Positions 5,798-51,904 of a stretch of DNA of 64,000 nucleotides are shown in pieces. The notes under the pieces are model-generated. The model ran no database searches. It had not been told where the DNA came from and was given only the letters and a program-made list of their open reading frames with translations. The stretch is taken from NCBI RefSeq assembly GCF_014898055.3, contig NW_023601104.1, positions 39,124,210-39,188,209 of the forward strand, in the 5' to 3' direction. The stretch comes from Talpa occidentalis. Lineage: Eukaryota > Chordata > Mammalia > Eulipotyphla > Talpidae. Position 1 is the first letter of the stretch. The number at the start of each line of letters is the position of its first letter. A program made the translations under genes and the position numbers.

Positions 5798-6238
5798 TCA
5801 GCTGGATCCCTTTTCGGAACCCTCATAGTGGACAGGTTCACGTTTACTGTTGCAGGCAATGGTGATGTGTCTCATTTTGTTAATGGCGTTGTAATTGTGG
5901 GTCCCTTGTTTCTTGTTATAGTCTGTGATGCTCATTGGGGATCTGCTCTTGTGGCAGTTCTTCTGTCCCTGCTTGCAGAGGATGTTTGACTCACGGCAGA
6001 TGGCCTGCACAGACACCAGGGGCTGGTGCACAAATGTGTTGAACTCCTTGTCTAAAATATTCTGGTGCTTCATCATCTGGTCACCGTAGTTGCTGTCGAA
6101 GAGGCCATTTCCAGGGTCCACATGCTGTCGCTTGAATTTTTCCACCTCAGACTCCCTCAGCTGGGAAGCCTGGGCTCCCTCAAGCACCAGCAGCACCAGG
6201 ACCAGCAGTGAGAACAGGACAAGGGACTTCAGAGCCAT
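5798..6238 (-). CDS. RNase A family protein, RNASE1-like, two disulfides missing
   Basis: This encodes a secreted RNase A superfamily protein of 146 residues: a 27-residue signal peptide ([20 protein letters not shown] start) and a mature part of about 119 residues. I chose the ATG at 6238 because it matches the unit B start and has a good context (ACAATGG); the frame stays open slightly further upstream but has no other ATG. By RNase A numbering the catalytic triad is kept: His12 in KRQHVD, Lys41 in DKEFNTF, His119 in EPVHYE. Cysteines 58, 65, 72 and 110 are present, so bonds 58-110 and 65-72 can form. Positions 26 (Gly), 40 (Asp or deleted), 84 (Tyr) and 95 (Asn) are not cysteine, which removes bonds 26-84 and 40-95 completely. 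Mature length is about 9 residues below the usual 128, with shortening around residues 37-39 and 85-95. Promoter, splice sites and polyA signal look intact. It may be an active, altered RNase or a gene early in decay; expression is unknown. Confidence 0.85.
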   Translation of the reverse strand: MALKSLVLFSLLVLVLLVLEGAQASQLRESEVEKFKRQHVDPGNGLFDSNYGDQMMKHQNILDKEFNTFVHQPLVSVQAICRESNILCKQGQKNCHKSRSPMSITDYNKKQGTHNYNAINKMRHITIACNSKREPVHYEGSEKGSS

Positions 6239-6266
6239 TGTGGCCACGATCCCCTGGAGGCCCCAC
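6239..6266 (-). other. 5' UTR start of RNase coding exon and splice acceptor, unit A
   Basis: On the minus strand a pyrimidine-rich tract ends in CTCTCCCAG at 6267-6275, directly before GTGGGGCC. The coding exon therefore starts at 6266 and carries a short 5' UTR. The same acceptor is conserved in unit B (exon start 33872) and unit C (38554). Confidence 0.75.
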
Positions 6267-18251: not shown

Positions 18252-19164
18252 AATAAATATTGGCTTGCATTTGCTTAAAAGCATTAAAAGAAATTATAAA
18301 AACATTGGAGCTCTTTTAATTGCTCTCTTCACCCTAAAGTACAGGACAATCAGCTGGCAATGCAGAGTCGCTAGGCCTGAGGAAAACCTCCACACATTGT
18401 ATCTAGTGTTAGAATCATAGCTGGCTCATGTCACACACCAGCAAGAAACAGGCCATTGCCATTTGATGGCAAATGTGCTTATATGCAGACAGTGCATTTC
18501 ATCAGTAATTGGCACAAAAATTTGCTGAATCATGATTGTGTGTCAGATTGCAGATGGGTGTTATCAATTAAAGGACAAAGTCGTATCTGCAATTTCATGG
18601 AACTTAGAGCCTATTGGGGGAAATGGATGTTAACCAAATAACCACCCAATCTGATGTATGATTAAAGACTAAATGAATGCCGGGAAGGAGGGGCATCCAG
18701 AGACATGAGAGGGGCTAACAAGGACTAGAGTGTGAGACGTCAGGATGACTCCCCTGAGGAAATGCTGCTGCTGGTTTGGGCACCAACACCAAGGATAGCA
18801 GCTGTTATAGTCAGTTTAGAGATGAAGAAACTGAGGACCAGAGAGGAATTTGCCCATGGACAAAATTTATAAGGCAGCCTCATCACAGGAAACCTGATTT
18901 GACTGAATTACAAACTTTTCCCTCATTTATACCAAAATACCCCAAAACAGGGAAATTTCACACACAAATCTTAGAAGGGAAATGTTGACCAGCAAGAACC
19001 AGCTTCCCTCCTTCCCATAAATGGAGAAACATTCTCTTCTTTCCTCCTAGAGCTCTTGTTCTCACAGTTAACTAGAGAAGGTGGACTTGGCACTGGCTAC
19101 ACCTCAGCCCAGAGGCTGCTGCTCAGCTTCTGGAATCCACCAACACCAGGTCCAAATGTGGTTC
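18252..19164. other. Intergenic DNA with a MIR-like piece
   Basis: Positions 18795-18865 resemble an antisense MIR (GATGAAGAAACTGAGGACC). Nothing else is recognised. The DNA at 19161-19164 (GTTC) is the left flank of the provirus. Confidence 0.5.
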
Positions 19165-19604
19165 CCATACAGGCTTTGTGGACTCCACCCCCACCCCAGG
19201 TCAAAGCCAAAGACACTGGGAACTCCAAATCCCATCACCACCAAAGGGAAGGTGGCTGGGACCTGAGGGTGGGGTTAAGCAGCCAGGTGGATACAAAAGG
19301 CAGACATGTGGGCTTTGGGGGGCTCTCCATTTTGGGGCCCTCGGCCAGCTCGCGGCGTCCGTCTAGCTCTGAGAGTGACTTTGGGGTTTCCAGGTCGTCG
19401 GATCGGGTAGGACGCATTAAAGACTTTATTTCCCTATTTTCTCCCTGAGTTGTACATTTTCCTTATTTCTTTTTCTCTTGTAAATAAACCTTTTATTAAC
19501 CCTTTTGCGTGTGTCTGTAGTAGAGTATTCATAAGTCCCTTTAAAGCGCGCGGGTGAGGACCCACAGCCAGGAACCCGTTTAATATCGGGGTTGCTCTAT
19601 AACA
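19165..19604 (+). repeat. 5' LTR of young provirus, truncated at its start
   Basis: It matches 27689-28131 almost perfectly. The first 33 bases of the LTR (27656-27688 in the 3' copy) are absent. A TATA-like GATACAAAAG lies near 19290 and AATAAA is at 19483-19488. It ends TATAACA at 19604. Confidence 0.92.
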
Positions 19605-19607
19605 GCT

Positions 19608-19625
19608 TGGCGTCCAACGTGGTTT
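19608..19625 (+). promoter_or_regulatory. Primer binding site, closest to tRNA-Lys type
   Basis: TGGCGTCCAACGTGG starts four bases past the LTR. It differs at one position from the first 15 bases of the classic tRNA-Lys(1,2) primer site, and it does not resemble the tRNA-Pro site common in gammaretroviruses. The match weakens after base 15. The tRNA assignment is from memory of the known sites. Confidence 0.55.
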
Positions 19626-19803
19626 GCGTTTCACCCGTGGTTGACCAGCCCAAAGTAATTTTTCTTGCGTTGGTCACCATAAAAGCGCATTAGGTCTGCA
19701 GGACTCGCAGTGAAACTCTTTGTTTCACGTCTTGAAAAGTTTTTTTTTTCTCCGCACATAAGGCCGTTGTGGGTGTGGTTTTGACCCAAACGCGGCCTCA
19801 ACC
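19626..19803 (+). other. Provirus 5' leader
   Basis: This is untranslated RNA leader between the primer site and gag. It contains no ATG, so scanning would reach the gag ATG at 19804 first. The packaging signal presumably lies here, but no motif is recognised. Confidence 0.6.
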
Positions 19804-22026
19804 ATGAATTTCAGCAGTTTAATCCCTAACTTGAGTTCTTTCAGTTTTTTTCCGGCCTTGAATTTAAGTAGCCTTTTTCCATTAAATATTACCACCAGTT
19901 TGATAAGTGTAAATAATTGGATTAGACCTAGCTTATGGCACGTGATTTTAATTCTGTATACATATGTGAATGGTTTCCAAGCCATCCCTTTGCAGTCTGT
20001 GCTTCTAGGTGTTTTTTTGGTAATGTGCATAGGCGCCATGTGCTACATTTTTGTTTCTATGAGAAGTAGTGGTTGTACTTCACATACTGAGAATGTGCTG
20101 CAACAAATTCAAGCTCTTAACTTAGCGATGAAACAACAAAATCAGGCTTTTGAGTCAGCTTTTCAAAGCGTGCAGCATCAAGTGCAACGACAAAATCAGA
20201 CTTTTGAGTCAGCTTTTCAAAGCATGCAGGATCAAGTGCAACGACAAAATCAGACTTTTGAGTCAGCTTTGCAACGACAAAATCAGACTTTTGAGTCAGC
20301 TTTTCAAAGCATGCAGGATCAAGTGCAACGACAAAATCAGGCTTTTGATTCAGCTATTGGCAGTGTGAGGGACGAAAATCGTAACGTTTTTGAGTCCGCC
20401 TTTAAAAGTGTGCAGGACCAGATACAGGCCGCCCTCCATGAATGGGATATGACACAGAAAAAGGCTAGAATAATGGTGCAGAGAAGAGATAAATGTTCTC
20501 CTTCCCATGAGGACTGCAGAAGGGCAGAGTTAGAAGAGGAAGAGATTCATATGCTAAATACCTTAAACTCGTCAGGACAAAGGCTTTCTCCACGTGACCA
20601 GGCCCCTCCTGAGGCCCCTCCCGCACAGACTCCTGAGGCTTCAGGACAAGGGCCTTCTCCACGTGACCAGGCCCCTCCTGAGGCCCCTCCCGTACAGATT
20701 CCTGAGGCTTCACAGCCTCCATTGCCCTCCAGGGAGGTAGATATCGTGGTGTCTCCTCCCCACACTAGGAGCGGCACCCATTTTGGCAGTAACGACCGCT
20801 CTGTGGCAGGACAGTTTCCTCTTCGCCAGCTGCCGATAGGTGGCGTGAATGAAGAGGGGAAACCTGCTGGGTACTTTTGGTCGCACCATCCTTTTAGCAC
20901 CGGGGACCTCCTAACTTGGAGGAACTCTGTTCCCTCGTACCGGCAGGCTCCTAAGAGGATGGCGAACTTGTTTGCCTCCGTTTTTCTCTCCCACTGCCCT
21001 AACTGGGCAGATATACAGATGATGTTACATGTTTTACTAGGTTTAGATGAGCGGAGGATAGTAGTGAGGAAAGCCAGGGAAGAGGCTGCACGTCTCCACC
21101 AACAGGATAGCCAAAACCCGAAGCCAGAGATTGCTGTCCCAGAGGTAGATCCTCAATGGGACCCCAACAATGGAGGACTGGCGAAGTTGGATCTCTATAA
21201 AAAATGTTTATTGGCAGGACTGGAGCAGGGAATCCCCAAACAAAAAAATTTTAATAAAATATTGGAACTTACACAAGGGGCTAATGAGGATCCATCTGAA
21301 TTCCTTGAGAGGATTATTCAGACGTATTCAGACCACACGGATTTAAATCCAGATGCCCCAGAAAATGCTCGTGTGCTCACTGTGGCGTTCATCACAAATA
21401 GTGCTCCAGACATAAGGAGAAAGCTAGCAAAGATAGACGGCGTCACAGAGATGAGTCCGTCCCAGGTAGTGGACTTAGCATTTAAGGTTTATAATAATAG
21501 AGAGAACAGGAGAGAGGACAGGAGACCGAAACCTGCGACTGTTTTTGTACAAAGAGAGCACAGGCCAGAGTTTCGGGATAACAGTAATGGACAGAGACGT
21601 GAACCCCTAGGAAGAGATCAGTGTGCTTTCTGTAGGGAAGAGGGACATTGGAAGGACAGTTGTCCCAGGTTACAGGACAGAGGCAGACGCAGTAATTCCA
21701 GCAGACAGGATAGAAGACCGAGGACACCACGACAGGATGATTCACGTAGGGGTTACAGGAGGGAATATAGGAGGAGTACACAGAACCAGGAACCAAGGAG
21801 AGAGGAAAGAGCACAGAGTAGAGGCTCAGATGAAGATAGGAGGGAATATAGACAGAGTAGAAGGAATCGAGAGCCCAGCACAGAGGACAGGAGACCAGTG
21901 ATAGCACAGAGTAGGGTCTCAGGTGAAGATAGGAGGGAATATAGACAGAGTAGAAGGAATCGGGAGCCAAGTGTGGAGGAAAGGAGACAAATGATAGTTC
22001 ATGGAGAAGGTTCAGATGAAGAATAG
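19804..22026 (+). CDS. gag: Gag polyprotein with membrane-anchor N-terminus
   Basis: This is a structural polyprotein of 740 residues. The start is the first ATG of the leader, with A at -3. Residues 43-56 are hydrophobic and 62-86 form a clear transmembrane-length segment (ends VMCIGAMCYIFVSM). Residues 97-215 are a glutamine-rich repetitive coiled coil built on an RQNQTFESAFQSMQDQV unit. Residues 255-310 are proline-rich with a tandem repeat. A gammaretroviral capsid follows (about 355-560, starting GYFWSHHPFS), then one zinc knuckle CAFCREEGHWKDSC (607-620) and an Arg-rich repetitive tail of about 120 residues. Residue 2 is Asn, so the usual N-myristoyl glycine is absent and no matrix domain is recognised. 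I find no PPxY or PTAP late-budding motif. No stop interrupts it. The inferred role is a Gag that inserts into a cell membrane instead of binding it by myristate. Confidence 0.88.
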   Translation: MNFSSLIPNLSSFSFFPALNLSSLFPLNITTSLISVNNWIRPSLWHVILILYTYVNGFQAIPLQSVLLGVFLVMCIGAMCYIFVSMRSSGCTSHTENVLQQIQALNLAMKQQNQAFESAFQSVQHQVQRQNQTFESAFQSMQDQVQRQNQTFESALQRQNQTFESAFQSMQDQVQRQNQAFDSAIGSVRDENRNVFESAFKSVQDQIQAALHEWDMTQKKARIMVQRRDKCSPSHEDCRRAELEEEEIHMLNTLNSSGQRLSPRDQAPPEAPPAQTPEASGQGPSPRDQAPPEAPPVQIPEASQPPLPSREVDIVVSPPHTRSGTHFGSNDRSVAGQFPLRQLPIGGVNEEGKPAGYFWSHHPFSTGDLLTWRNSVPSYRQAPKRMANLFASVFLSHCPNWADIQMMLHVLLGLDERRIVVRKAREEAARLHQQDSQNPKPEIAVPEVDPQWDPNNGGLAKLDLYKKCLLAGLEQGIPKQKNFNKILELTQGANEDPSEFLERIIQTYSDHTDLNPDAPENARVLTVAFITNSAPDIRRKLAKIDGVTEMSPSQVVDLAFKVYNNRENRREDRRPKPATVFVQREHRPEFRDNSNGQRREPLGRDQCAFCREEGHWKDSCPRLQDRGRRSNSSRQDRRPRTPRQDDSRRGYRREYRRSTQNQEPRREERAQSRGSDEDRREYRQSRRNREPSTEDRRPVIAQSRVSGEDRREYRQSRRNREPSVEERRQMIVHGEGSDEE
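20136..20380 (+). repeat. Tandem repeat in gag coding the coiled coil
   Basis: Units of about 54 bp containing CGACAAAATCAGACTTTTGA repeat several times, with one shortened unit. They stay in frame, giving repeated RQNQTFESAF blocks. Such repeats can change length by slippage, so copy number may vary among proviruses. Confidence 0.85.
21830..21975 (+). repeat. Tandem repeat in gag coding the Arg-rich tail
   Basis: A unit of about 90 bp containing GGAGGGAATATAGACAGAGT appears twice, with a more diverged earlier copy near 21755. It encodes RREYRQSRRNREPS-type blocks after the zinc knuckle, probably adding to nucleic-acid binding. Confidence 0.75.
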
Positions 22027-22055
22027 GGGTGCCCAGGGGTTCCACTAGATCTTAA

Positions 22056-25000
22056 ACCCATCAAAATAACCCCCTCAGAGCCCCGGTAACCCTCGCTGTG
22101 GGGGATCGCCTGATTGATTTCTTGGTGGACACTGGAGCAACATACTCAGTTTTGAATTCGAAATTAACTAAAATGAGCAAAAAGACTGCAGCAGTCATTG
22201 GGGTTACAGGGAAGTCACAACAGACACCCTTCCTGCAACCTTTGGAGTGCCGGCTAGGCACCACACAGCTCCAGCACAGCTTCCTGTACATGGAAGAGTG
22301 TCCAATCCCTCTCCTTGGCCGTGACCTTTTAAGTAAGCTCAATGCACGAATTATATTCTCACCCAAAAATCAGAGGCTTCACCTACAGGTTCCTCCAGAG
22401 CATGCTCTGCGGTTCCAGATGTTGCTTACTCAAGATGCTCCACCAAAAAGTGAAATTTTACCTCCAGAAATTGTTGAAAGAGTAAGTAAAGGGGTATGGG
22501 CTGATGGAACCCCAGGACGTGCGAAAAATGCGGAGCCTGTAAAGATAGAAGTGATAGAGGGGAGCAAAACCCCGAGAAGGAAACAATACCCCTTAAGGGA
22601 GGAGGCCTTGAGAGGAATTGAGCCAGTATTGAAAAGGTTCCTTCAATCTGGACTCATTCGGCCCTGTCGCTCACCGTACAATACTCCAATTCTGCCAGTG
22701 AAGAAACCCCATACAGGCGAGTATCGTTTTGTCCAAGATTTAAGGGCTATTAATGACATTGTTCAGGATTTACATCCCACTGTGCCTAATCCGTACACCC
22801 TATTAACTGCCATACCTGGTGACTATGGGTGGTTTTCAGTATTAGACCTGAAGGATGCCTTTTTCTGTATTCCAATTGATGTCCAGGATCAACTGCTTTT
22901 TGCCTTTGAGTGGCAGGACCCTAAGTCCAAGAGCACTCTCCAGTATTGCTGGACCGTGCTTCCACAGGGATTTAAGAACTCCCCAACTATTTTTGGGGAA
23001 ATACTGGCCAGGGATCTCAGGAAGGTTCAACTAAACCAGGGTGTCTTATTGCAATATGTAGATGATTTATTGATTGCAAGTCCAGACTACGAATCCTGTC
23101 TGGAAAATACCATAGTGGTACTGAACCACCTGGAAAAATGTGGCTACAAGGTGTCACCTAACAAGGCACAGATATGCAAACAAACTGTGACGTATTTGGG
23201 GTTTGAAATCAAGAAAGGCAGACGGAGCCTGATGACGGAAAGAAAACAGGTAATTTCAGCCCTTAGAATCCCCAGTAACCGGCGACAGTTGCGCGGATTT
23301 TTGGGTATGGCTGGGTTTTGTAGGATTTGGATTCCTAATTTTGGACTAATAGCAAAACCTTTATATGATGCTCTCAAAGGCCTGGACTCTGAACCTTTGT
23401 CTTGGACTCCGGAATGTCAAAAGGCTTTTGATGAAATAAAAGTAAAGTTGATTTCAGCACCAGCATTAGGACTTCCGGATCTTAGGAAGCCATTCAGACT
23501 TTATGTACATGAGAGACAGGGGGTTGCCCTAGGAGTGCTGATCCAATTGTTGGGACCAGAAATGCAGCCCGTTGCATATCTGTCCAAACAGTTGGACCAC
23601 ACCACTAAGGGATGGCCTTCATGCTTGCGTGCTGTGGCTGCCACTTGTGACCTCCTACACGAGGCAGAGAAGTTTACATTGGGTCAGCCCATCACTGTGT
23701 GTGTGCCACATCAGGTCTTGACATTGCTGGAGCAGAAGGGTGGACTTTGGTTAACCGCTGGGCAAATGGGAAAGTATCAAGCAGCTCTGTTGGACAATCC
23801 TAATGTGAAACTGCAGGTTTCTAATTCCCTGAATCCTGCCACACTGCTTCCAAGCAATGCAGACGGACTTGAGGATGACACTTTAATCCATAACTGTTTA
23901 GAAACCATAGACACAGTGTATGCCAGCCGACCAGATCTAACGGACCAGCCTCTGCCGGATCCAGAGTGGGAGCTATTTACAGATGGCAGCAGCTTTATGG
24001 ATCAAGGCCGTCGATGTGCTGGATATGCAGTGGTGACACTCCAGAACACCGTGGAAGCCAAGGCCCTTCCGACAGGTACATCAGCACAGAAAGCCGAATT
24101 AATAGCCCTGACCCGTGCCTTGGAACTCTCAAAAGGTAAAAGAGTCAATATATTTACCGACTCAAAATACTCTTTTATGATTCTCCACATGCATGGGGCC
24201 ATTTGGAAGGAGCGGGGACTTCTTACGGCTAGCAACAAGGATGTCAAACACCCATTAGAAATCCTGGCCTTGTTAAAGGCAGTAGCTTTACCATCAGCTG
24301 TCGCTGTGATGCACTGTCCCGGCCACCAAAAGGGTGGGTCTGACTTGGCAAAGGGCAACAGGGCAGCTGATCGGGCAGCTAAGGCCGCTGCCCGTTCTGC
24401 CCTCCAGGGTGCACTCATCCCTCTTGTGGACCTGACTCAGTATGCTCCTGAATACACCGAGCGGGATGAGGAGAGAGCTCGTGCATGGGGATTTACTGAG
24501 TTTGACCCCAGCTCTACTTGGAGAGTAAACTCCCATGGGATGATACTCCTCCCGGAGGCCCTGGTATATCCGGTGCTAAAACATCTTCACGAAGGATCCC
24601 ACTATGGGAGAGATGCCTTATTAGAAACTGTACGCCCATATTTGAAGGGACCATATTTGCATAGAATAGCACAACGGATCACCCGAGGTTGTCAACTATG
24701 TGCCAGGAATAACCCCAAGACTGACTCCCACCCCAAAGCCGTTGGGGTTCAATATCGAGGCAAGTGCCCTTTTGAGGACTGGCAGGTGGACTTTACACAA
24801 ATGCCTAGAACAACAGGCAACTTCAAATACCTGTTGGTTTTTGTGGATACGTTCTCGGGATGGGTGGAAGCATTTCCCACAAAGACGGAAAAAGCTTCTG
24901 AGGTTGCAAAACAGCTGCTAAAGGAGATAATTCCTCGCTTTGGGTTGCCGGATTCTATCCAGAGTGATAATGGGCCAGCATTTGTCTCTGATGTTACTCA

Positions 25001-25643
25001 TGCAGTAAGCAGTGCGTTACAGATCAACTGGAAATTGCATGCTGCATGGAGACCGCAGTCTTCTGGGCAAACAGAAAAGATGAACCACACCTTGAAGAAA
25101 ACCTTGGCGAAACTGTGCCAAGAAACACAGCTTCGTTGGGACCAGGTACTATCCCTTGCCCTCCTCCGCATAAGAGTGGCACCTAGAAGTGGGCTACAAT
25201 TAAGCCCCTTTGAAATTGTGTTTGGAAGACCCTTCCAGGCCTCAGTTCTGAAAGCCAGTCCGGAAATAGCTCAAGATTGCCGGATCACACAATATGTGAA
25301 ACACATCCAGGAGGTTCTGACAGTAATTCATAACTTTGCAACCTCGAGAATCTCTATGCCTCCTGATCAACCATTGCATCCCTTCAAACCTGGAGATCAG
25401 GTCTTACTGAAGACCTGGCAGAGTGGGGATGCCCAAAACCAGTTGTCAGAAAAATGGACTGGTCCATATGATGTTTTGCTAAGCACACATACTTCTCTGA
25501 AACTTGCAGGAATAAAACCCTGGGTACATCATTCCAGAGTTAAGAAAGCGCCAGAAGGAACGGACCCAGAGACGAAGTCCCATTGGTCTTGTGAACCCAT
25601 TGAAGACTTGAGATATTTATTTAAGAAACAGAAAGAAACTTGA
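22056..25643 (+). CDS. pol: Pro-Pol polyprotein (protease, RT, RNase H, integrase)
   Basis: The frame opens after a TAA at 22053-22055 and has no ATG at its head, so it is not translated on its own; residue numbers below count from the GTG at 22098. Protease has the active-site DTG at 11-13 and LLGRDLL near 72-78. Reverse transcriptase has catalytic D250 and the YVDD box (320-323). RNase H keeps D629, E667, D688 and D758. Integrase has a zinc-binding H831, H835, C865, C868 set and catalytic D898, D957 and E993 with the canonical 35-residue spacing, then a C-terminal GPYDV box. All 1181 codons from 22098 are open. Gag ends at 22026 in a different frame: the gag frame beyond its UAG meets a second stop at 22087-22089, and the pol frame is closed before 22056. 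Simple stop readthrough therefore would not reach pol in this copy. A single-base change or sequencing error near the junction is the likely cause. Confidence 0.9.
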   Translation, partial: THQNNPLRAPVTLAVGDRLIDFLVDTGATYSVLNSKLTKMSKKTAAVIGVTGKSQQTPFLQPLECRLGTTQLQHSFLYMEECPIPLLGRDLLSKLNARIIFSPKNQRLHLQVPPEHALRFQMLLTQDAPPKSEILPPEIVERVSKGVWADGTPGRAKNAEPVKIEVIEGSKTPRRKQYPLREEALRGIEPVLKRFLQSGLIRPCRSPYNTPILPVKKPHTGEYRFVQDLRAINDIVQDLHPTVPNPYTLLTAIPGDYGWFSVLDLKDAFFCIPIDVQDQLLFAFEWQDPKSKSTLQYCWTVLPQGFKNSPTIFGEILARDLRKVQLNQGVLLQYVDDLLIASPDYESCLENTIVVLNHLEKCGYKVSPNKAQICKQTVTYLGFEIKKGRRSLMTERKQVISALRIPSNRRQLRGFLGMAGFCRIWIPNFGLIAKPLYDALKGLDSEPLSWTPECQKAFDEIKVKLISAPALGLPDLRKPFRLYVHERQGVALGVLIQLLGPEMQPVAYLSKQLDHTTKGWPSCLRAVAATCDLLHEAEKFTLGQPITVCVPHQVLTLLEQKGGLWLTAGQMGKYQAALLDNPNVKLQVSNSLNPATLLPSNADGLEDDTLIHNCLETIDTVYASRPDLTDQPLPDPEWELFTDGSSFMDQGRRCAGYAVVTLQNTVEAKALPTGTSAQKAELIALTRALELSKGKRVNIFTDSKYSFMILHMHGAIWKERGLLTASNKDVKHPLEILALLKAVALPSAVAVMHCPGHQKGGSDLAKGNRAADRAAKAAARSALQGALIPLVDLTQYAPEYTERDEERARAWGFTEFDPSSTWRVNSHGMILLPEALVYPVLKHLHEGSHYGRDALLETVRPYLKGPYLHRIAQRITRGCQLCARNNPKTDSHPKAVGVQYRGKCPFEDWQVDFTQMPRTTGNFKYLLVFVDTFSGWVEAFPTKTEKASEVAKQLLKEIIPRFGLPDSIQSDNGPAFVSDVTHAVSSALQINWKLHAAWRPQSSGQTEKMNHTLKKTLAKLCQETQLRWDQVLSLALLRIRVAPRSGLQLSPFEIVFGRPFQASVLKASPEIAQDCRITQYVKHIQEVLTVIHNFATSRISMPPDQPLHPFKPGDQVLLKTWQSGDAQNQLSEKWTGPYDVLLSTHTSLKLAGIKPWVHHSRVKKAPEGTDPETKSHWSCEPIEDLRYLFKKQKET

Positions 25644-27634
25644 ATGTTACTGACTTCTTTTTCCAGTTATTGTTGCAGGATACCCAAGAACTCGTTTTTT
25701 TTTTCTGAAGAAACCCTGAGAAGAAAAAAACTACCATGCTCTAACCAATCTCTTTCCTTGCAAAGTTTAGGAGATGTGAAATGACATCTAGGATCATGCA
25801 TATGCTGACAGTATTTTTTTTCTTTCATACAAAGGTTTTTAATCTTGATTTTGTTATTTCCTATCAACTTTTGTTTTTTTTTCTTTGAAGTTTTTTTGTT
25901 AACCCTGCTTGTTTTTTTATTATTACTTTGGCCTATCAGACAAACTGCAGTTGCACGGGATATCCCACGCGTGATGAATGGTAACTAAAGAGCTCTTTGT
26001 GTCTGTATGTTGTCTGTCTGTATGTCCTTGTGTCTAACCGTCTTGACCTCCAGTGATCGACAAATTGGTATACATGGTGCCTGTATAAGTTGAAAAAAAG
26101 AGTCTCCAGTTATGAGAAAAACAAAAAGTTATGGTTTGATTGTCAACATTGTGCTACTGAACTAAGCCGGTGCCTTCATAGAGATTGAATATTGTTGTTT
26201 CTGTTACTTTTCTGATATTTATGGCAAAGCTTCCCAGAAATCTAAATTCAAGTACAAATTTGGTGGCCTGTCATTTGACTGATGCAAGGAAATTTTGTGG
26301 AACCTCAGTAGAGCTCCTGAGACACTCCACGAAGTTTCTCCTTTTCCTCCTGGGAAAGCATTACATAAATTTGTTCTATTTGGCTTTTACCTAATGAAGT
26401 AAAACTGGAAGGGAAGCATTGTCACTTGGGAAAATGGTAAAAAACTTTGGTATGTCCAATATGTTAACAGTAGTATCGGGTATGTATGTAAATTGTCAGT
26501 GGTGATTGTCACCTTGTAATATTGTATAATTCAATTGTTTCACATCTACAGAAATTGTTTCTGGAAATATAGGGAGAAAAGGTCTCAACAGATTCCTATT
26601 GATGGAACTGTTGAGAGTAAAACTTTCTTACAAAGGACTCAATAGACCTGGAAATACACCTGACATTTACTAAGGTTTCTTTGACATAATACTGGAACTT
26701 TTTTTTTATGCATTCTGTCCTGAATCCACGAAATTTTTGTTTTGTTTTGTTTTGTTTTGACTAACCAGGATCTGCAGAAAGGTTGTAATTTTTTTCCAGC
26801 AAAGCTAACTTGTCACATTTTCTCTCCCCTTGATACCAACACAGCATACAAATAGTGGTAGTAATTTTTGCTACTTATTTCAGAGTCTGTTTTTGCATAA
26901 CTTCCATAGGGATTTTGTCTGTTTTAACGAAAATTGGACGTGAGTTTGATTGTGTGGCTTTGTGTGGAGTTCTTCCAGAAAGTTGAAAAAGAGCTGAACC
27001 AAGAAGAGGAGAACCTGTTTGCCTTGTTTGTAGGGTTCCAGAGACCTCCAAAGAAGGTGAGGAAGCTTGCCTCCATTGGCAGGACTGGACAACCCGGCCA
27101 ACGAAAATGCCCTGGTACCCTCGAGAAGAGGAAAGCCCAGGTGGAGTCTGATGAGACCAACTTTATACCTGAAGCCTGCATCGACCAGATGCCAACGGTT
27201 CGCTCTGATCCTGTATGGAATATTTCAACAAAGCCAGCTAAAATTGCTGTTAGTTATTTCTACTCTGTGATTTTATGCAAAAATAGAAAAATGGTTTAAA
27301 AGTAGATCTAGTTTGCAAACTTTTGCTTTGCTGTTAAAAGTTTGGGATCAAGGTTGAGAAAATTTGTGTTTTTACATCAGTTGAACCATTTTAAGATTTT
27401 TTTTTTCCTGAAATTTTTACATATCTGCTGACTTGTTTTGGCTAACGCCTCCAGATTTTTTTTTGGCTTAAACTGATGAACTATTTTTTCCTGGAGTGGA
27501 GGACTTTTGCTTTCCACAATGGACAAATACCTGGAGAGACTGGTTTTCTTTCACACTGGAACCTGACAAAACGTTCATCTGAGACTGCATCCCAACCTCC
27601 ATATATTTGATCTTCATCACCATGGAAATGGTGG
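25644..27634 (+). other. Env position of provirus, no env recognised
   Basis: About 2 kb of T-rich DNA lies between pol and the polypurine tract. I find no signal peptide, no surface/transmembrane cleavage site and no disulfide-motif region typical of gammaretroviral Env. The longest frame, 26937-27299, has no ATG near its start and encodes a lysine-rich stretch (for example KVEKELNQEEENLFALF) I do not recognise. The element thus appears env-less, or its env was replaced by non-coding DNA. Confidence 0.7.
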
Positions 27635-27653
27635 CAAAAAGTGAAAGGGGGGA
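27635..27653 (+). promoter_or_regulatory. Polypurine tract
   Basis: AAAAAGTGAAAGGGGGGAA sits two to three bases before the 3' LTR start TGTTAGG. It is the expected primer site for plus-strand DNA synthesis. Confidence 0.8.
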
Positions 27654-27655
27654 AT

Positions 27656-28131
27656 TGTTAGGGGGAAAAGGCAGTCCCAAAGCAAATTCCATACAGGCTT
27701 TGTGGACTCCACCCCCACCCCAGGCCAAAGCCAAAGACACTGGGAACTCCAAATCCCATCACCACCAAAGGGAAGGTGGCTGGGACCTGAGGGTGGGGTT
27801 AAGCAGCCAGGTGGATACAAAAGGCAGACACGTGGGCTTTGGGGGCTCTCTCTCCATTTTGGGGCCCTCGGCCAGCTCGCGGCGTCCGTCTAGCTCTGAG
27901 AGTGACTTTGGGGTTTCCAGGTCGTCGGATCGGGTAGGACGCATTAAAGACTTTATTTCCCTATTTTCTCCCTGAGTTGTACATTTTCCTTATTTCTTTT
28001 TCTCTTGTAAATAAACCTTTTATTAACCCTTTTGCGTGTGTCTGTAGTAGAGTATTCATAAGTCCCTTTAAAGCGCGCGGGTGAGGACCCACAGCCAGGA
28101 ACCCGTTTAATATCGGGGTTGCTCTATAACA
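27656..28131 (+). repeat. 3' LTR of young provirus
   Basis: This is a complete 476-bp LTR from TGTTAGGGGG to TATAACA. Its AATAAA lies near 28010. It is nearly identical to the 5' LTR and clearly related to three solo LTRs in the window. Its right end abuts the start of duplication unit B within about 8 bases. Confidence 0.93.
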
Positions 28132-28237: not shown

Positions 28238-28715
28238 TGTTAGGGGGAAAAGGATGTCCTAAAGCTAATTCCATACAGGCTTTGTAGACTCCACCCCCGA
28301 CTCCAGACCAAAGCCAAAAGACACTGGGAACTCCAAATCCCATCCCCACCAAAGGGAAGGTGGCTGGGACCTGAGGGTGGGGTTAAGCAGCCAGGTGTGG
28401 TATAAAGCCAGACACTTGGGCTTTGGAGAGGATCCCCCATTTTGGCTCTCTGCCAGCTCGCAGTACCTGGCCAGCTCTGAGAGTGCCTTTGGATTTCCAG
28501 GTCATCGGATCAGGTAGGACGCATTAAAGACTTTATTTCCCTATTTTCTCCCTGAGTTGTACATTTTCTTAATTCCTCTTCCCTTGTAAATAAACCTTTT
28601 ATTAACCTTTTGCATGTGCCTGTAGTGGGGTATTAATAAGTCCCTTTTAAGCGCGCTGGTGAGGACCCATAGCCAGGCAACCCGTTTTATTTTATATCGA
28701 GGTTGCCCTATAACA
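28238..28715 (+). mobile_element. Solo LTR, same family as young provirus
   Basis: It runs from TGTTAGGGGGAAAAGGATGT to CCCTATAACA. It has a TATA box (GGTATAAAGC) and AATAAA. The flanks are AAAT and AAAC, an imperfect 4-bp duplication. The unit A sequence near 380-390 is the empty site, so the LTR inserted after the units diverged, and internal recombination left only one LTR. Confidence 0.88.
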
Positions 28716-33376: not shown

Positions 33377-33844
33377 TCAGGTGGAGACCTCCACAGCAGC
33401 ATCGAAGTGGACAGGCACATACGGGTTTCCCTCACAGGCCACAATAATGTATCTCTCTTTCTGGGTGGTCCGGTAGGCACAGTTGGGGTACTTGGAGCCA
33501 CCAGTCAGGCGACAGTCTGTGAGGCGCATGCTGGAGTGGCTCTGGTGGCAGTTGGGCTGCCCATTCTTGCAGGTGATGTTTCTCTCAAGACAGACTGCCT
33601 GGACGTCCACCAGGGACTCGTGCACAAAGGTGTTCACCGGCTTACAGCGCCCCTGCGTCAAATTCCGGCGCCTCATCATCAGGTTGCAGTAGGTGGGGTT
33701 GCTTTCAGGGAAATTGCCTGGGTCCATGTGCTGCCGCTGGAACCTGTGGTACCGAGATTCCTTCCCCAGGGAAGGCTGGACACCCCCCAGCACCAGCAGC
33801 ACCAGGACCAGCAGTGAGAACAGGACGAGGGACTTCAGAGCCAT
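33377..33844 (-). CDS. RNASE1: Pancreatic-type ribonuclease (RNASE1), canonical copy
   Basis: This is a secreted endoribonuclease that cuts RNA after pyrimidines. It has 155 residues: a 27-residue signal peptide and a 128-residue mature enzyme that aligns with RNase A numbering without a gap. Catalytic residues are His12 (QRQHMD), Lys41 (RCKPVNTF) and His119 (VPVHFD). All eight cysteines, 26, 40, 58, 65, 72, 84, 95 and 110, are present, giving the four standard disulfides. N-glycosylation sequons sit at Asn34 (NLT) and Asn62 (NIT). The ATG lies in a strong context (ACCATGG). A single coding exon follows a conserved acceptor (exon start 33872). It is the reference copy for judging the altered copies in units A and C. 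Assignment to RNASE1 is firm; orthology to a specific species copy cannot be settled here. Confidence 0.95.
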
Positions 33845-38005: not shown

Positions 38006-38526
38006 TTATTCGTGTTGGGGCCAAGAGGGAAAAACTCGGGGGAGTGAGACCATGCAGATGTCTCCGGATCGCAATGCGTCCAGCAATTCAGGCCAGGAAT
38101 CATCAAAGTGGATGGGCTCAAGCATCTCGGAACAGGCAATGGTGATAAATTTATTGCTGCTATTGGTCTTGTAGTCAGGGGTTTGGGCCTCAGGTGACTG
38201 ACTACACTCGGTGATGCTCACTGGGGCCTTGCTCTTGTGGCAGTTGATCTGCCTACCATCCCGGCAGAGGATGGTAGGCTCGAGGCAGATGTCCTGGACA
38301 TCTTTCCAGGGTGCATGCACAAAGGTGTTGAATTTCCTCTTTAAGAGTTTCCGGTCCCTCATCATGTCGTTGCAGTAATTGGAACTGATGGAACCATTAC
38401 GGGTGTCCATGTGCCTCTCCTAGAAACGCTGAACTGGAGAAGATTTGCTGGGGGAAGGCTGGGCACTACACTGACCACACATCACCACAACAGCAGTGAG
38501 AACAAGATGAGGGACTTCAGAGTCAA
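38006..38526 (-). pseudogene. RNase A family pseudogene, RNASE1-like
   Basis: On minus the start codon position (38524-38526) reads TTG instead of ATG. A TGA stop follows within the signal peptide, the signal and mature parts are out of frame, and a TAG stands at residue 9-10, just before His12. From the ATG at 38410 the frame is open to 38006, but that Met lies past His12, so the product would lack a catalytic residue. Cysteines 26, 58, 65, 72, 84 and 110 remain; 40 and 95 are gone. Lys41 appears to read Arg, if its loop aligns with the unit A copy. His119 remains (EPIHFD). The C-terminus runs about 20 residues past the usual end. The loop shortening near residues 37-39 is shared with the unit A gene, which points to a common ancestor. 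Promoter and splice sites are still recognisable. Confidence 0.9.
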
Positions 38527-41239: not shown

Positions 41240-41719
41240 TGTTAGGGGGAAAAGGATGTCCTAAAGCTAATTCCATATGGGCTTTGTGGACTCCACCCCC
41301 ACTCCAGACCAAAGCCATCAGGACATTGGGAAAGACAAATCCCATCACCACCAAAGGGAAGGTTGCTGGAACCTGAGGGTGGAGTTAAGCAGCCAGGTTT
41401 GGTATAAAACCAGACACGTGGGCTTTGGAGGGCCAGGGGGAATTCCCTTTTTGGCTCTCAGCCAGCTTGCAGCTCTCAGCCAGCTCTCAGAGGGCCATTG
41501 GGTTTCCAGGTCGGCGGATCGGGTAGGACGCATTAAAGACTTTATTTCCCTATTTTCTCCCTGAGTTATACATTTTCCTTATTTCCTTTTTCCTTGTAAA
41601 TAAACTTTTATTAACCTTTTATATATGCCTGTAGTGGAGTATTAATAAGTCCCTTTTAAGCGCGCGGGTGAGGACCCACAGCCAGGCAACCCGTTCAATA
41701 TCAGGGCTGCTCTATGACA
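41240..41719 (+). mobile_element. Solo LTR, same family as young provirus
   Basis: It runs from TGTTAGGGGGAAAAGGATGT to CTCTATGACA, with a GGTATAAAAC TATA box and AATAAA. The flanks are GCAG on the left and AGGA on the right, so there is no target-site duplication. This suggests a rearrangement or recombination between elements. Confidence 0.85.
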
Positions 41720-45531: not shown

Positions 45532-46009
45532 TGTTAGGGGGAAAAGGATGTCCTAAAGCTAATTCCATGCAGGCTTTGTGGACTCCACCACCACTCCAGA
45601 CCAAAGCCAAAAGACACTGGGAACTCCAAATCCCATCACCACCAAAGGGAAGGTGGCTGGGACCTGAGGGTGGGGTTAAGCAGCCAGGTGTGGTATAAAG
45701 CCAGACACGTGGGCTTTGGAGGGGATCCCCCATTTTTGGCTCCCCACCAGCTCGCAGCGTTCGGCCAGCTCTGAGAGTGCCTTTGGGTTTCCAGGTCGGC
45801 GGATCAGGTAGGACGCATTAAAGACTTTATTTCCCTATTTTCTCCCTGAGTTGTACATTTCCTTAATTCCCTTTCCCTTGTAAATAAACCTTTTATTAAC
45901 CTTTTGTGTGTCCCTGTAGTGGAGTATTAATAAGTCCCTTTTAAGCGAGGGGGTGAGGACCCATAGCCAGGCAACCCGTTTTATTTTATATCGGGGTTGC
46001 CCGATAACA
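45532..46009 (+). mobile_element. Solo LTR, same family as young provirus
   Basis: It runs from TGTTAGGGGGAAAAGGATGT to CCGATAACA. A perfect 4-bp duplication TATG flanks it (45528-45531, 46010-46013), as expected for a gammaretroviral integrase. It has a GGTATAAAGC TATA box. Confidence 0.92.
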
Positions 46010-50221: not shown

Positions 50222-51904
50222 ATCTTAAAAAAAAATAGAAGAAGTCACAAAGAAATGGAAAGACATGCCCTGCTCATGGATTGGAAGAATAAATATTATT
50301 AAAATGGCCATCCTATCAAAAGCAATATACAGATTCAATGCTATTCCAATCAAAATTTCAATGTCATTCTTCAAAGAAATAGAACAATTATTGATGAAAT
50401 TCATATGGAATCACCAAAAACCCCGAATAGCCAAAGCTCTCCTGAAAAAAAAAAAAAAGGGAATGGAGGCATCACACTCCCAGACTTCAAACTATACTAC
50501 AAAGCCATAATCATCAAAACTGCATGGTGTTGGAACAAGAACAGACACACAGACCAATGGAATCGAATAGAAAATCCAGAAATAAACCCACAGATTTATG
50601 GTCAACTAATCTTTGACAAAGGAGCAAAGACTATGCATTGGAGCAAAGAAAGTTTGTTCAATAAATGGTGCTGGGAAAACTGGGTCGCTACATGCAAAAG
50701 AATGAAGCTTGACTACTACCTAACACCATACACAAAAACCAACTCAAAATGGATTAAAGAACTGGACATAAGACCTGAAACCATAAAATACATAGAAGGA
50801 AATATAGGTGAAACACTACATGATATGCACATCAAAGACATCTTTACAGACACATCACCCAAAGCAGTGATAATGAAGGCAAAGATAAACAGCTGGGACT
50901 ACATCAAATTAAAGAGCTTCTGCACAGAAAAAGAGACAATAACAAAAACAAAGAGAAACCCCACCGACTGGGAGAACATTTTTGCACACAACACTAATGA
51001 TAAAGGACTGATCACAAAAATCTACAAAGAGCTGATGAGACTCAACAAAAACAAAGAAAATAATCCAGTCAAAAAATGGGCAGAAGAGCTAAAAAGAAAC
51101 TTCTCTGAAGAGGAAATGCAAATGGCCAACAGGTATATGAAAAAATGTTCAACATCACTTGTCATCAGGGAAATGCAAATCAAAACTACAATGAGATACC
51201 ATCTTACACCAGTGAGAATAGCACATATTAAAAAAACTAGCAACAACAAATATTGGCGAGGTTGTGGAGAAAAAGGAACTCTCTTGCACTGTTGGTGGGA
51301 GTGCAAACTGTTCCAACCACTATGGAAAGCTGTGTGGAGATTTCTGGACCTACTAAACATAGAGCTTCCATATGATCCAGCAATTCCACTCCTAGGTATT
51401 TACCCAAAGGACACAGAAACATCAATTCCAAAGAGCACCTGCACCCCTATGTTTATAGCAGCACAATTTACAATAGCTAAGCTTGGAAACAACCCAAATG
51501 CCCAAAAATAGATGACTGGGTCAAGAAGATGTGGTGCATATATACCATGGAATATTACTCAGCATTCAAAAAAGATAAACTCATGCAATTTGCAGCAACA
51601 TGGATGGAGCTGGAAGGGATCATGCTCAGCAAAATAAGCCAGAAAGAAAAAGAAAAATACTGGATGGTCTCACTCATAGCAGGAATCTAGAAAACTTAAA
51701 TAAGGGACCAGGAAAAAGAATAACTATAAGAAAGAAAATATCAAATTCAACAAACAACTATGAACCAGAGACACTCTATGGGGAGTGGGGGGGGGCGGGG
51801 AAAGGAGGGATTGGGGTCAAAATAAGGGGGTTGCAATTGTATGGGGAATATAAAAATAAAATAAATAAATAAAAGATAGTAAATAAAAAAATAAATAAAT
51901 AAAA
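49219..51904 (+). mobile_element. 5'-truncated L1 with ORF2 3' half
   Basis: It encodes the RT and C-terminal parts of L1 ORF2 in two open stretches. The first (49331-49591) starts [19 protein letters not shown], and FADDMILY, the RT active site, follows just after it at 49645-49668. The second (50405-51511) runs through the Cys-containing C-terminal domain to NPNAQK. Between them lie frameshifts and a SINE (49928-50235). The 3' UTR has a G-rich tract near 51781-51800 and an A-rich tail. Flanking copies TATAGAATTATA (left, near 49205) and TATGGAATTATA (right, near 51906) fit a target-site duplication. It cannot move on its own. Confidence 0.88.
49928..50235 (+). mobile_element. tRNA-derived SINE (younger type) inside L1
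   Basis: Pol III box A-like TGGCACAGAGGTTGAG and box B-like GGATCGATCCC are visible. A TAAATAAA array of over 50 bases forms the tail. AATAGAAGAAG duplications flank it. It is younger than the L1 it interrupts. Confidence 0.92.

Follow-up and report, generated by a model that had tools for sequence, protein, structure and literature searches.

Gag of a gammaretrovirus-like endogenous element in the mole Talpa occidentalis carries a predicted membrane anchor and helical rod in place of a matrix domain

An endogenous retrovirus of the mole Talpa occidentalis encodes a Gag protein in which a predicted membrane anchor and helical rod stand in place of the matrix domain, and this domain replacement is real and present in all three copies seen. 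The best reading of these sequences, which we hold at slightly better than even confidence, is that Gag is anchored in a membrane with its capsid in the cytosol and assembles on an internal membrane; we infer both the topology and the compartment. A more detailed version is tentative, and we rate its chances somewhat below even: the lineage would have given up the matrix domain altogether in favour of a membrane hairpin and a rod of variable length, giving an integral-membrane Gag that assembles internally and whose rod is tuned by repeats of 11 and 18 residues.

Results

Structure, age and class of the provirus

The provirus occupies positions 19165–28131 of the window, by which we mean the whole 64,000-nt stretch of DNA analysed, and its gag ORF (19804–22026) is a single open frame of 740 amino acids. 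Its features are as follows.

19165–19604, plus strand: 5′ LTR, lacking the counterpart of nt 1–33 of the 3′ LTR
19605–19803, plus strand: leader of 199 nt, ATG absent
19804–20478, plus strand: Gag residues 1–225, comprising a nearly uncharged tail, helix 42–56, a predicted span at ~63–88 and helix 93–224
20132–20355, plus strand: in-frame tandem repeats that extend the long helix of Gag, with units of 54, 33 and 87 nt (18, 11 and 29 aa)
20479–20817, plus strand: acidic and then Pro-rich linker, placed like p12 and containing a 69-nt duplication (20572–20712)
20818–22026, plus strand: capsid, followed by a CCHC zinc knuckle and an Arg-rich tail containing 93-nt repeats, ending in the stop codon TAG
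22098–25643, plus strand: pro-pol frame (protease, RT, integrase) with RVP, RVT_1, rve and MLVIN_C (Pfam, two pieces); the start codon at 22098 is a mechanical assignment
25644–27655, plus strand: 2 kb after pol with no recognisable env in a Pfam scan of plus-strand ORFs
27656–28131, plus strand: 3′ LTR of 476 nt, with ends TGTTA and TAACA

The 5′ and 3′ LTRs are identical at 437 of 440 aligned bases, with 3 additional gap columns. Taking mammalian neutral rates as the basis for converting LTR divergence to age, the element is young, roughly one to two million years old. The 33-nt deficit of the 5′ LTR (window 19130–19165) exists despite 99% identity of the remaining LTR to the 3′ LTR. A stretch resembling a primer-binding site lies in the leader at 19608 and resembles tRNA-Lys, a primer that is uncommon among gammaretroviral elements. 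BLAST comparisons within the 64-kb window revealed three more LTRs of the same family (28238–28715, 41240–41719 and 45532–46009), which are 84.7–88.0% identical to the 3′ LTR, and no second match to the leader, gag or post-pol part. Four LTR-bearing insertions of this family in 64 kb thus fit a multiplying family and repeated insertion in the region. The surrounding window also contains, on the minus strand, three RNase A family frames (PF00074) at 5798–6247 (4e-23), 33377–33844 (4.1e-44) and 38006–38410 (2.8e-24), apparently a duplicated cluster of pancreatic-type ribonucleases with LTR insertions in between. A 368-codon open frame at 50405–51511 resembles a LINE-1 ORF2 fragment.

By sequence, the element is classed as a gammaretroviral-type (class I) endogenous retrovirus, a membership that rests on capsid and pol. 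The capsid matches Gag_p30 (Pfam, 3.2e-36), and the best solved chains for 20791–21663 are gag/capsid entries (6.7e-36). The single CCHC zinc knuckle has the spacing C-x2-C-x4-H-x4-C; its Pfam zf-CCHC match (0.038) is below cut-off, and a p10 nucleocapsid chain matches the gag region at 3e-05. For the RT piece at 22500–23201, the best chain scored 2.4e-73 and the MMLV RT chain 2.7e-73; among the best 60 of 205 matches, the top group, which includes MMLV RT, spans 2.4e-73 to 2.5e-72 and the next group begins at 1.4e-25. The integrase C-terminus matches MLVIN_C (Pfam, 1.5e-12). Because Gag_p30, MLVIN_C and MMLV-like RT all match, capsid and pol are assigned as gammaretroviral, and the description of capsid, zinc knuckle and pol as gammaretrovirus-like in a first-pass annotation of this DNA stands. 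Gammaretroviral gag and pol share one frame across a stop codon. In the window copy, the gag TAG is followed by 20 in-frame codons and the protease lies in a different frame from gag; we read the copy as probably disrupted at this junction, in what looks like a damaged read-through layout, and an alternative is that the junction may reflect a different translation strategy.

Gag begins with a predicted membrane span

Residue 2 of Gag is Asn rather than Gly, confirming that there is no N-terminal glycine for myristoylation. The highest 19-residue Kyte–Doolittle window of Gag has a value of 2.70 (residues 66–84). When the whole of Gag was shuffled, 1 of 2000 sequences reached this value, and when residues 1–95 were shuffled, 46 of 2000 did; in this copy, every window above 1.6 is centred at 66–80. 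AlphaFold2 prediction for residues 1–225 (three sequences) gave helices at 42–56, 64–88 and 93–224 and no globular matrix-like bundle, with 10-residue mean pLDDT values of 82–95 over residues 101–220, 48–60 over 41–90 and below 50 for 1–40; a model of full-length Gag showed the same helices at low confidence (mean pLDDT 43). Ahead of the span, the only charges are R41 and H46, and R87 lies at the span end. The tail before the span has four sequons, at residues 2, 9, 20 and 28. Insertion of residues 63–88 into a membrane is very likely. Thus, hydropathy and AlphaFold2 both bear out the membrane-spanning stretch first placed at 62–86, and its limits are better set at 63–88. The segment at 43–56, also singled out earlier, is indeed hydrophobic and is predicted to form helix 42–56, yet it is weak, with no window above 1.6.

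No known domain was recognised in this region. For residues 1–338, Pfam listed 12 families at E 0.2 or less, none of which reached its curated cut-off and none of which was Gag_MA, and no retroviral family for the Gag N-terminus was present among the best 25 of 34 matches listed. Spore_III_AB (2.8e-05) and Pex24p (8.4e-05) also scored below their curated cut-offs and were set aside as coiled-coil or hydrophobic look-alikes. A search of solved structures with the N-terminus returned 3 weak matches only, the best at 0.019.

A matrix domain has ~100 residues or more. The gag frame is open only from 19762, 14 codons ahead of the start, and these 14 codons together with a 199-nt leader devoid of ATG are too short to accommodate a matrix domain ahead of gag, and such a domain is thereby ruled out. 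The lack of a matrix domain reported at first pass is therefore upheld, as none was found upstream and no Gag_MA was listed. The same leader bears on a very improbable alternative, namely that particles form from a Gag that is initiated at an internal Met or is cleaved, with the anchored form being accessory. In-frame Met codons do occur at residues 74, 79, 86 and 109, but with no ATG in the leader the gag ATG is the first to be met, and a Gag begun further in would be left without a recognised membrane-binding part.

Two relatives share the anchor and inherited it with the element

The first-pass annotation had suggested a search for the N-terminus elsewhere, and this search, which covered proteins of ~407–1295 aa, found relatives, so the N-terminus is not private to the window copy. 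Among 3548 candidates, only two reached E 0.001 or less, and both are Talpa occidentalis proteins: P0001 (66% identity over 100% of the query) and P0002 (56% over 82%). A profile search, which scored the 7990 candidates with the most words in common, returned only the same two. In both, the anchor N-terminus precedes a gammaretroviral capsid; the P0001 sequence ends within the capsid and that of P0002 short of the zinc knuckle, and neither is a full Gag. Host capture in the window copy alone is ruled out by the presence of the N-terminus in these two proteins. In IMG/VR, two N-terminal patterns matched 65 stretches and six capsid patterns matched 6, none of which was confirmed in either case, in a collection from which records of the window's genome were possibly left out. 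A capsid search added P0003, a 465-aa protein that is 52% identical over the capsid piece and stands for a 38-member protein cluster in ENA whose capsid is gammaretroviral. The N-terminus of P0003 is Pro-rich and possibly incomplete and is thus uninformative about the ancestral state.

The span recurs at the equivalent position in P0001 (KD19 2.62) and P0002 (2.52). Across the three copies, 16 positions of residues 43–90 vary, and none of these changes brings a charged residue into 43–88; position 89, directly after the span, becomes Arg in P0002. Residue 41 is Arg in the window copy and Lys in P0001 and P0002, and the sequon at residue 28 is common to all three. The start Met of P0002 lies four residues upstream, and Leu occupies the position of Met1; the family therefore does not share a single start site.

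To compare divergence along Gag, repeat residues 116–180 were left out and the capsid was taken as residues 339–490 only. On this basis, identity to the window copy was 143/161 in the N-terminus versus 135/152 in the capsid for P0001 (p=1), and 116/159 versus 118/151 for P0002 (p=0.30). The N-terminus thus diverges like the capsid, indicating that it was inherited with the element. Its identity did not exceed the value for the Pro-rich linker (Fisher p of 0.70 in P0001 and 1 in P0002); being no more conserved than the linker, it yields numbers that do not show selection on the anchor.

These comparisons also frame the idea that an ancestor of the family acquired the N-terminus in a single capture of host or foreign sequence, which we consider improbable. 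Such a capture would accord with an N-terminus common to the three copies seen, with Pfam matches that stay below cut-off and include no retroviral family among the best 25 of 34 listed, and with solved-structure matches that are weak only. Against it, no donor was found among proteins of ~407–1295 aa, a size range that a donor of other length would escape.

A predicted helical rod of variable length follows the span

The predicted helix at 93–224 is ~130 residues long, and hydrophobicity in residues 92–222 has a period of 3.62, a periodicity reached by 0 of 1000 shuffles and, when repeat block 116–180 is removed, by 31 of 1000. The tandem repeats have units of 18, 11 and 29 residues. As 18 residues in five turns give 3.60 residues per turn, close to the measured 3.62, units of 18 and 11 residues keep both the reading frame and the helix phase.

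The expansion is peculiar to the window copy: of residues 116–180, 47 are missing in P0001 and all 65 in P0002. Rod periodicity was reached by 18 of 1000 shuffles for P0001; for P0002 it was not above chance (458 of 1000 shuffles), and the segment contains two prolines. Because the repeats are mostly missing in one relative and wholly missing in the other, members of the family do not consistently have a long coiled coil. The repeated coiled coil proposed at first pass therefore holds for the window copy, where the helix extends to ~224, is weakly supported in P0001 and finds no support in P0002.

Elsewhere in the window gag, tandem repeats of 69 nt occur in the Pro-rich linker (20572–20712) and of 93 nt in the Arg-rich tail (21757–22027). 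Duplication seems to have enlarged the protein at three places, with unit lengths that keep the frame.

No recognisable env and no late-budding motif of three kinds

Of 22 plus-strand ORFs of at least 35 aa that overlap 25650–27650, the Pfam scan for env covered 20; the other two lie mostly in the LTR, and a further 23 ORFs are on the minus strand. None of the 20 matched env, at a sensitivity that a decayed short env could escape, and the post-pol plus-strand ORFs gave two weak non-env Pfam matches, both below cut-off. A motif search of Gag found no PPxY, P(T/S)AP or YPxL. These results agree with the earlier claims that the element has no env and that Gag contains neither PPxY nor PTAP, and extend the latter to YPxL. 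In the env position, a 123-codon plus-strand frame (window 26928–27299) has no Pfam match and might be captured or a product of chance.

Predicted topology and a proposed route of assembly

By the positive-inside rule, Arg87, which closes the span, and Arg/Lys41, which precedes the short helix, favour a cytosolic location for the C-terminal side of Gag. This orientation is compatible either with a hairpin or with a single span whose tail is in the lumen. In our judgement, a cytosolic C-terminal side is about twice as likely as the reverse, and the chance that the compartment is an internal membrane is about even.

Assembly of the mole Gag on an internal membrane is plausible and could proceed as follows. 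The first ~90 residues, nearly uncharged, would take translating ribosomes to the ER, where the span at 63–88, perhaps as a hairpin with 42–56, would hold Gag in the membrane so that its C-terminal side faces the cytosol. Helix 93–224 would bundle Gag molecules and set the distance between membrane and capsid, and capsid and RNA would then assemble on the cytosolic face of the internal membrane. With neither env nor a late-budding motif, the element would multiply inside its own cell lineage and spread within the germ line.

Discussion

Among the matches listed in a literature search that mostly did not extend to subscription journals, we found no account of the mole element or of any class I Gag that spans a membrane and lacks a matrix domain. 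Novelty is nevertheless tempered by a gammaretroviral precedent for a membrane-spanning Gag that the first-pass annotation overlooked, the glycoGag (gPr80gag) of MLV, which is the nearest precedent found. This form carries 88 additional residues at its N-terminus and enters the ER (PMC3423011, PMC11908239); one of these papers predicts its span at the junction of leader and matrix (PMC11908239), and the other places all 88 leader residues in the cytosol (PMC3423011). As described there, glycoGag resembles the mole Gag in having an N-terminal membrane span at a roughly equal distance from the start, and differs in keeping the matrix, in starting at CUG, in being made beside ordinary Gag and in being described mostly as type II. 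The mole protein, in contrast, starts at an ATG, and no other Gag start was seen; it has no matrix, and its C-terminal side is predicted to be cytosolic.

The anchor of the mole Gag could derive from such a leader rather than having arisen anew, the possibility raised at first pass. A serious alternative to our reading, though one that we regard as unlikely, holds that the N-terminus arose from a glycoGag-type leader, an upstream-initiated membrane-spanning extension that became the sole form of Gag after loss of the matrix; in that event the protein might be type II and have its capsid side in the lumen. The rough likeness between the 88 extra residues of MLV glycoGag and the end of the predicted mole span at 88 speaks for this origin, and this positional match suggests a glycoGag-like form minus the matrix. 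On the other side, Arg87 at the span end favours a cytosolic C-terminal side, and a particle-forming capsid placed in the lumen would presumably be cut off from cytosolic RNA. Moreover, the topology of glycoGag is itself disputed, with type I also reported (PMC11908239). A cytosolic capsid on an internal membrane is the reading we prefer.

If that reading is true, the gammaretroviral matrix domain is dispensable and can be replaced by an integral membrane anchor, and the mole element would offer a natural and recent case for how retroviruses become intracellular retrotransposons. The transition may also link to glycoGag, the topology of which is still disputed.

Other elements without env provide further points of reference. 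Mouse IAP elements have a betaretroviral-type pol and MuERV-L belongs to class III; unlike IAP, the mole element has an MLV-like pol, RT included, and an MLV-like capsid. Mouse IAP lost env and gained an ER-targeting signal (PMC4643047). The mole element likewise has no recognisable env, and its Gag would share the ER direction if its N-terminus acts as we propose. MuERV-L, also without env, accumulates particles in the ER (PMC5930517). MLERV1_3 and FcERV_gamma6 are env-less families thought to spread by retrotransposition, and they keep a coding-intact matrix domain that is faster-evolving (PMC4643047). As these two families keep the matrix domain, its lack in the mole element, where none was detected, is unusual. 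If the more detailed version of our reading, with a hairpin and a rod tuned by repeats, is true, the mole element took a further route, beside those of IAP and MuERV-L, to life as an intracellular genomic parasite.
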